The notes under the pieces: model-generated
The model's input: only the letters and a program-made list of their open reading frames with translations
Databases searched by the model: none
What the model was told of the DNA's origin: nothing
Position numbers and translations under genes: made by a program
Part shown: positions 25,926 to 32,082 of the stretch, in pieces
Layout: the number at the start of each line of letters is the position of its first letter
Numbering within the stretch: position 1 is the stretch's first letter
Assembly: GCA_017505525.1 (NCBI GenBank)
Contig: JAFVPB010000047.1
Coordinates: 1 to 40,137, forward strand
Source: Clostridia bacterium
GTDB lineage: Bacteria > Bacillota > Clostridia > UMGS1883
Reading direction: 5' to 3'
DNA length: 40,137 nt

Positions 25926-25949
25926 ACCTGCCGAAAAATTTCGGCAGGT
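25926..25949. terminator. Terminator hairpin, left duplicate (24 bp)
   Basis: Arms ACCTGCCGAAA and TTTCGGCAGGT around AA. It is identical to 26223-26246. It lies 4 bases after the AraC stop but is followed by the element (CAGCGTG) instead of a T-run, so for plus-strand transcription it is a hairpin without its U-tract. Confidence 0.9.
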
Positions 25950-26222
25950 CAGCGTGTCGATAAACCTATCGACACGCTGGCAGACTGGGAAAAAGGAAGG
26001 TAAATCTGTTCAATACAATCTCGTCGGCGTACGATGGTACGGTAGAGATTGTATTGAACAGAAGCAAGCAAAAGTCCCTGAAAGCGTGGCTTTCAGGGAC
26101 TTTCTTAACTTTTAATTTTTTTGATAAAATTATATTGTTAACGGTTCGTCGAGGACGCCGAACCCTATAAATTTATAAAATTATAATTATGCTTGTGGTT
26201 GACCGACTTTTTCGACGGTCTG
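25950..26222 (+). mobile_element. 273-bp structured non-coding element, copy 1, inserted in a terminator
   Basis: Begins CAG and ends CTG, with imperfect terminal inverted repeats (CAGcgtGTCGA / CAGaccGTCGA). Stem-loops in order: 25950-25979 (13-bp perfect, loop AACC); 26006-26061 (17-bp outer stem, inner CGTAC/GTACG); 26071-26103 (15-bp, loop GTG); 26143-26164 (GGTTCG/CGAACC); 26201-26220 (GACCG/CGGTC). An AT-rich stretch lies between the third and fourth. It is flanked by exact 24-bp copies of the AraC/eutH terminator hairpin, so this is a target-site duplication. No plausible gene is encoded. Copy 2 is at 31782-32055. Confidence 0.85.
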
Positions 26223-26246
26223 ACCTGCCGAAAAATTTCGGCAGGT
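26223..26246. terminator. Terminator hairpin, right duplicate (24 bp)
   Basis: Exact copy of 25926-25949, here followed by TTTTATTGC, so it keeps the original plus-strand U-tract. For the converging eutH gene it is the first hairpin met but lacks a U-tract. The sequences outside the two copies (AAGCAATAAAAA and TTTTTATTGCTT) are complementary, showing that the site was one symmetrical bidirectional terminator before insertion. Confidence 0.88.
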
Positions 26247-31732: not shown

Positions 31733-31761
31733 ATTTTAGCACAAACAAAAAGAAATGGCAA
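31733..31761 (-). promoter_or_regulatory. Possible promoter of the glycosylase-nitrilase pair overlapping a terminator hairpin
   Basis: Minus strand: TTGCCA (31761-31756), 17-bp spacer, TAAAAT (31738-31733). The -35 lies in the distal arm of the duplicated terminator hairpin, so the hairpin copy left behind by the element would preserve it. Confidence 0.4.
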
Positions 31762-31781
31762 TGCCTTTTACGCATTGCCAT
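31755..31781 (-). terminator. Terminator hairpin, left duplicate (27 bp)
   Basis: ATGGCAATGC and GCATTGCCAT around CTTTTAC. On the minus strand it is followed by TTTCTTTTTG, the original U-tract of the GH4 gene terminator. Identical to 32056-32082. Confidence 0.88.
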
Positions 31782-32055
31782 CAGACCGTCGAAAAAGTCG
31801 GTCAACCACAAGCAAAATTATATTTTTATAAATTTGTAGGGTTCGGCGTCCTCGACGAACCGTTAACAATATAATTTTTATCAAAAAAATTAAAAGTTAA
31901 GAAAGCCCCTGAAAACGTGGTTTTCTGGGGCTTTTGCTTGCTTCTGTCCAATACAATCTCTACCGTACCATCGTACGCCGACGAGTTTGTATTGAACAGA
32001 TTTACCTTCCTTTTTTCCAGTCTGCCAGCGTGCCGATAGGTTTATCGACACGCTG
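31782..32055 (-). mobile_element. 274-bp structured non-coding element, copy 2 (inverted)
   Basis: Reverse complement of copy 1 with 16 differences, one of them a single-base insertion (about 94 percent identity). All five stem-loops are kept: in the third, T-A becomes C-G and G-C becomes A-T, while the loop GTG becomes CAC. It is flanked by exact 27-bp copies of the GH4 terminator hairpin. A 50-codon open frame exists in both copies, but nearly all substitutions in it change the amino acid and it has no proper start, so it is not taken as a gene. Confidence 0.85.
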
Positions 32056-32082
32056 ATGGCAATGCCTTTTACGCATTGCCAT
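32056..32082 (-). terminator. Terminator hairpin, right duplicate (27 bp)
   Basis: Exact copy of 31755-31781, 6 nt past the GH4 stop. On the minus strand it is followed by the element (CAGCGTG), not by a T-run, so GH4 transcripts should read on into the element. Confidence 0.88.

Follow-up and report, generated by a model that had tools for sequence, protein, structure and literature searches.

A non-coding element of Clostridia flanked by duplicated terminator hairpins, and its probable partners in the IS1182 family

How does a short piece of non-coding DNA come to lie, at two places on one contig, between exact copies of a complete terminator hairpin, when the hairpins at the two places are unrelated? 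The question is raised by a 40,137-nucleotide stretch of DNA from a Clostridia bacterium (the window). The first copy of the element (273 bp, 25950-26222, forward strand, with IS1182-like tips) lies between 24-bp repeats of ACCTGCCGAAAAATTTCGGCAGGT at 25926-25949 and 26223-26246, the right-hand one being followed by a T-tract. The second (274 bp, 94% identical to the first, 31782-32055, inverted, on the reverse strand) lies between 27-bp repeats of ATGGCAATGCCTTTTACGCATTGCCAT at 31755-31781 and 32056-32082. At both sites the repeats match exactly and fold into a complete stem-loop, and ACCTGCCGAAAAATTTCGGCAGGT and ATGGCAATGCCTTTTACGCATTGCCAT bear no relation to one another; on these coordinates and repeats the first-pass annotation proved correct throughout. 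The element encodes no transposase and contains no open reading frame of 90 or more amino acids, but it is multicopy, with 28 full or partial matches to the 273 bp in its own genome. Further intact copies there, those that can be read across, are flanked by different duplicated hairpins, and the duplications at the two window sites are therefore not a matter of chance. Several further copies in this genome are broken at contig ends, with the same hairpin to be found on another contig. In two of the assemblies (G000 and G034) a large number of contigs break off within a copy of the element, making copy numbers uncertain, and identical hairpins on two contig ends could be used there for joining contigs.

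The element has a recognizable internal layout. Its 5' tip (CAGCGTGTCGATAAA..., 25950-25979) is itself a 12-bp hairpin, with a covarying helix in which 97.8% of alignment cells are paired. Beyond it a covarying 14-bp stem (26006-26061) encloses a core, TCGTCGGCGTACGATGGTACGGTAGAG, at about 26021-26047, and is followed by a sequence that has the look of a terminator hairpin (GTCCCTGAAAGCGTGGCTTTCAGGGAC, 26074-26100). The 3' tip, GACTTTTTCGACGGTCTG (26205-26222), was recognized by pattern counts and agrees in 17 of 18 bases with the end of an intact insertion sequence (IS) that is described below. Judging from the sequence, a transcript arriving from a neighbouring gene would meet the left hairpin without its U-tract and enter the element, where it could stop at the internal hairpin or at the far hairpin copy; termination at either place would explain why the insertion is tolerated.

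Duplication of whole hairpins is real and general, far beyond the window. Within the class Clostridia the element has relatives both in the same genus and in other families; a covariance model built on the 120 bases at its 5' end detects it in 28 of 291 sampled Clostridia genomes and 22 of 180 genera, and whole-hairpin duplications were seen in most of the extra genera that were examined after that scan. Scanning GTDB contigs for the conserved core yielded many more copies; every record concerned bears the name of uncultured Clostridia, Eubacteriales or Oscillospiraceae. A duplication 18-41 bp long flanks 75 of 101 non-redundant copies, and a hairpin adjoins each end in 86. Symmetry was assessed on the 46 exact duplications that reach 16 bp or more (actual lengths 18-35 bp) by folding each on its midpoint and taking the mean fraction of paired positions, with random windows from the same loci as the control. 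That fraction is 0.90 for the duplications, against 0.26 for the random windows, and it reaches at least 0.8 in 40 of 46 duplications, against 5 of 2000 controls. The centre of the hairpin coincides with the centre of the duplication in 40 of the 46 and is at most half a base away in 44, and pairing, at 91-98% in the outermost positions inside the duplication, drops to about 40% beyond it. Of these 46 duplications, 41 begin with A and 40 end with T; apart from that preference the target sites share no sequence. The A-tract stays outside the left hairpin copy and the T-tract outside the right. The proposal that the length of the duplication follows that of the hairpin, made from the two window sites, is thus borne out over a range of 18-41 bp, with the duplications centred on the loop.

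About a quarter of the copies of this transposase-free element have no clear direct duplication; in many of these a loop is mutated or inverted, or the two hairpins differ, as decay and recombination would give. The first-pass annotation had named two kinds of observation that would speak against its reading. One of them, copies without duplications, exists as a minority, much of it explained in the way just given; the other, a double hairpin without the element, was never met in the data, which are from loci other than the sister-species counterparts of the two window sites. In about six copies (L025, L051, L144, L157, L192 and a copy of an IS, L121) the loops of the two flanking hairpins are inverted, or nearly so, with respect to each other, as if one hairpin had flipped after insertion. 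Two different complete hairpins flank L039, L046, L079, L186, L223 and L228, as recombination between copies could bring about; copies of this sort may serve as markers of genome rearrangements.

An element without a transposase would need a partner. Profile searches with PF05598 and NF033551 detected no IS1182 transposase in the window genome; its active partner is therefore absent, lost or located in the few per cent of the genome that is unassembled. A related genome (G034) retains a decayed IS1182 element with the tips CAGATTGTTGAAAAAGTC and TTCTTCGACAGTCTG and a hairpin against each. Another genome of the same bacterial family (G015) has an intact IS of 1576 bp (L102; tips CAGACTGTCGAAAAAGTC...GGTTCTTCGACAGTCTG) that is flanked by an exact 29-bp duplication, AAACGCCCGACGCAATGCGTCGGGCGTTT, which is a whole terminator-like hairpin. 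L102, which has the tip GACTTTTTCGACRGTCTG in common with the window element, is the full-length, transposase-bearing element with the same ends that had been proposed as an object of search. Its transposase scores 415.7 bits with NF033551 (the NCBIfam IS1182 model; cut-off 270) and contains the Pfam domains PF05598, PF13751 and PF01609. The DDE residues are D145, D294 and E421, invariant in the CAG-tip clade over the seven sequences compared. A structural model (pLDDT 76) gives weak fold matches to the Tn5 and piggyBac transposases; a sequence search of the PDB with the transposase returned no match. IS1202-type elements, which also make long target duplications, had been put forward as a comparison, but the driver found here is a DDE transposase of the IS1182 family, above the cut-off for that family. 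Duplicated hairpins of 22-30 bp underlie further ISs with CAG tips (L106, L107, L108, L112, L113, L135 and L297-L299). The window element is short, multicopy and transposase-free, with its partner's tips and its partner's behaviour toward the target: it looks, in short, like a MITE.

The behaviour goes with a clade. In a tree built from 24 different transposases of the IS1182 family, in which the CAG-tip grouping covers the ISs with a complete transposase, the CAG-tip enzymes form one clade (support 100/99). Their ISs have terminal inverted repeats, every copy that could be judged lies at a hairpin, and nearly all of these hairpins are duplicated, the exceptions being L110, with two different hairpins, and L121, in which the two hairpin copies are mutually inverted. 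L111, which adjoins the clade, has a 20-bp hairpin duplication. The clade with GGGGC tips (support 100/100) makes no duplication, and a third IS1182 group (L123, L124, L130, L301, L315 and L316) makes ordinary duplications of 7-9 bp. A single IS1182 relative outside the CAG clade (L128, genome G108) has an 8-bp duplication in the loop region of the palindrome GGCGCGATGAAGACATCGCGCC, which resembles a hypothetical loop-duplicating pathway (c) of PMC5678879. Plasmids and phages carry related transposases, in ISEfa7 of Enterococcus faecium and in streptococcal ISs, one of them annotated as IS1562, and several of these ISs have hairpin duplications of 18-26 bp; some copies of ISEfa7 (L255, L257 and L260) have no matching hairpin on one side. 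ISEfa7 and the streptococcal phage IS (labelled "transposase-IS1562") have the tips CAGACTGTAGACAAAGTC or CAGACTGAAGACAAAGTC and a related DDE transposase, and whole-hairpin duplication, seen here, is common to them and the window element; they carry a transposase, whereas the window element is a derivative of 273 bp in which a structured core is conserved. The literature search turned up no account of hairpin duplication by these two ISs. The tips of the MITEs differ among lineages (GTCGATAAA or GATGACAAA) in parallel with those of the CAG-clade ISs (L284, L285 and L287), which would fit an adaptation of the MITE to different transposases.

Comparing occupied with empty sites shows what insertion does. 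The plasmid pELF_AA94 carries ISEfa7 (1536 bp) with a 25-bp duplication; when its flanks are joined in silico they are identical, over 475 of 475 positions, with pELF_AA55 and another plasmid, each with a single hairpin. For the streptococcal phages Javan87 and Javan90 the record lengths are 1564 apart, a difference made up of the IS (1538) and a single 26-bp hairpin copy, and the joined flanks of Javan87 match Javan90 exactly. In both of these pairs, which concern ISs with ends of this kind and not the MITE itself, the sequences show one hairpin becoming two upon insertion. Empty counterparts of the window's own two insertions were found neither in sister species nor in any of the collected loci. 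It had been held that the repeats are target-site duplications and not attachment cores; unrelated hairpins duplicated at different sites, together with single-hairpin sites that turn double upon insertion of an IS whose ends are of the same kind, uphold that view. The same comparison bears on another origin for the flanking hairpins, by template switching or gene conversion beside a simple insertion at some later time. The half dozen copies with inverted or nearly inverted loops do suggest that hairpins can be rewritten after insertion. The two pairs, however, differ locally only by the IS and one hairpin copy, the flanks compared being identical, and exact direct duplications are found in many copies; a later origin is largely refuted by the occupied and empty sequences and is the least probable of the alternatives that we have weighed.

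From the tips, the clade, the loop-centred duplication of whole hairpins and the step from one hairpin to two, all of them plain in the sequences, we infer that the window element is a MITE mobilized in trans by a single clade within the IS1182 family, one with tips like CAGACTGTCGAAAAA that targets extruded hairpins at their 5' feet. We would put the probability of this reading at about four in five. Recognition of a folded target, already suggested in the first-pass annotation, is the best reading of what the sequences offer. DDE transposases join the 3' ends of their element to 5' phosphates of the target; on linear DNA the stagger is set by the protein or the synapse, so that the length of the duplication is normally fixed. 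A range of 18-41 bp centred on the loop favours recognition of the folded form over a synapse with a fixed stagger on linear DNA. In the scheme that we propose, the transposase would recognize an extruded hairpin or cruciform, usually that of an intrinsic terminator, and would link each 3' end of the element to its own 5' foot of the stem-loop, the two feet lying on opposite strands. However long its arms, a four-way junction would hold these feet side by side, and gap repair would then copy the whole hairpin on to both sides, making the duplication as long as the hairpin.

Need the target be folded at all? A dimeric transposase that bound a linear palindrome symmetrically and made a long staggered cut would likewise give duplications that are symmetrical around the centre of the palindrome, and the commonest lengths, 22-30 bp, lie within the possible span of a flexible dimer. 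That the lengths track the arms over 18-41 bp, and that the sites share nothing in sequence beyond the A at the start and the T at the end, argues against it, as does a locus from another family (L112) in which hairpin, IS, hairpin, MITE and hairpin follow one another in that order, the hairpin being one and the same throughout. There the IS has duplicated 25 bp and the MITE-like element 29 bp; a single hairpin has evidently taken both kinds of element, and the position of the cut can vary slightly along the stem, symmetrically on both sides. Binding to a linear palindrome is accordingly an unlikely explanation. Slightly less unlikely, though still improbable, is that the target is a hairpin exposed in DNA made single-stranded by lagging-strand replication or by transcription, and not a double-stranded cruciform: most targets resemble terminators, the stem having A and T tracts on its outer sides, and might be unwound when they are transcribed or replicated. 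Transfer to both strands at opposite feet nevertheless requires the complementary strand, and the cruciform offers the simplest route to a direct duplication.

The first-pass annotation knew of no described element with this behaviour. That was too sweeping: targeting of hairpins and terminators by the IS1182 family has been published (PMC4923244, PMC5678879, PMC3098183). IS1272 and TnSha1, both of that family, target hairpins of any sequence, often terminators, but they delete or replace the hairpin without any target duplication (PMC4923244, PMC5678879), whereas the window element duplicates it. The hairpin is kept and doubled at our sites, which do not show replacement of the IS1272 type. 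Figure 13 of the 2017 paper (PMC5678879) sets out attack at the 3' feet, leading to replacement, as the proposal for IS1272, and offers attack at the 5' feet (pathway b), by which the whole stem-loop is duplicated, solely as a hypothetical alternative. For ISCbo5 and ISBma2 of the same family, every insertion site, with a single exception, is a hairpin at the end of a gene and is interpreted as a terminator, as at the window sites; the main text of that report is silent on duplication of the hairpin (PMC3098183). The ISMac2 MITEs of Methanosarcina acetivorans (160-169 bp) are, like the window element, non-autonomous derivatives of an IS1182 IS, with no hairpin-sized direct repeats listed for them (PMC3852290). 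No paper documenting duplication of a whole hairpin was found in a literature search whose range lay outside ISfinder, subscription journals and supplementary files. Within the literature reached, then, duplication of the whole hairpin is new, and well supported, as a variant of the known hairpin targeting by IS1182 elements.

A duplication that has the length of its hairpin, over the range 18-41 bp, gives direct evidence from genomes that a target is chosen by the shape of its DNA, and it turns the formation and use of cruciforms in living bacteria into a question that can be tested with a natural enzyme. An unproven route in the 2017 model for IS1272 (pathway b) becomes the property of a defined clade, with ISEfa7 among its relatives. 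The pattern also suggests a route by which an element can settle in gene-dense genomes without disrupting genes.

There remains the core of the element. In an alignment of 24 diverse copies (25950-26069 and its relatives), each of the 14 pairs of the stem around the core TCGTCGGCGTACGAKGGTACGGTAGAG has undergone changes in both partners among the copies. The structure as a whole has 95.4% of its cells paired and a covariation score of 0.333; sliding the partners lowers these values to 36-41% and to 0.068 or less. A core kept through so many families is not usual in a MITE, which suggests that it has a function under selection; a functional RNA and a DNA structure required for mobility are both conceivable. 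The strong covariation and wide conservation would also suit an independent mobile element built on a structured RNA, akin to a group II intron or an omega RNA, and not a MITE at all. We regard that as very improbable: a search of Rfam with the element and its nested copies gave no supported family for it, the tips and the behaviour toward the target match those of an IS of the IS1182 family, and target duplications are foreign to group II introns. Group IIC introns prefer terminators, as the element does, but the element has a target duplication and no intron signal in Rfam; with no intron RNA signal at E values up to 1, a group II intron was rejected as a candidate.

A second family of elements is more abundant in the window genome (37 matches), and its ends resemble the tips of the GGGGC-tip IS1182 elements. 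A broader proposition would have one DDE clade read the four-way junction of a cruciform and cut at its 5' feet, the folded target setting the length of the duplication, while a sister clade attacks otherwise and replaces the hairpin, both of them feeding SINE-like parasites with a conserved structured core; we hold the chances for and against it to be even. The second element contains a motif similar to the core of the first; a covariance model of the MITE core gave no supported recognition of the second element's core, and a common origin is not claimed. In several copies of the first element (L022 and L023 in the window genome, L057 in genome G023) the internal terminator hairpin has been replaced by the second element, which is what IS1272 would do.
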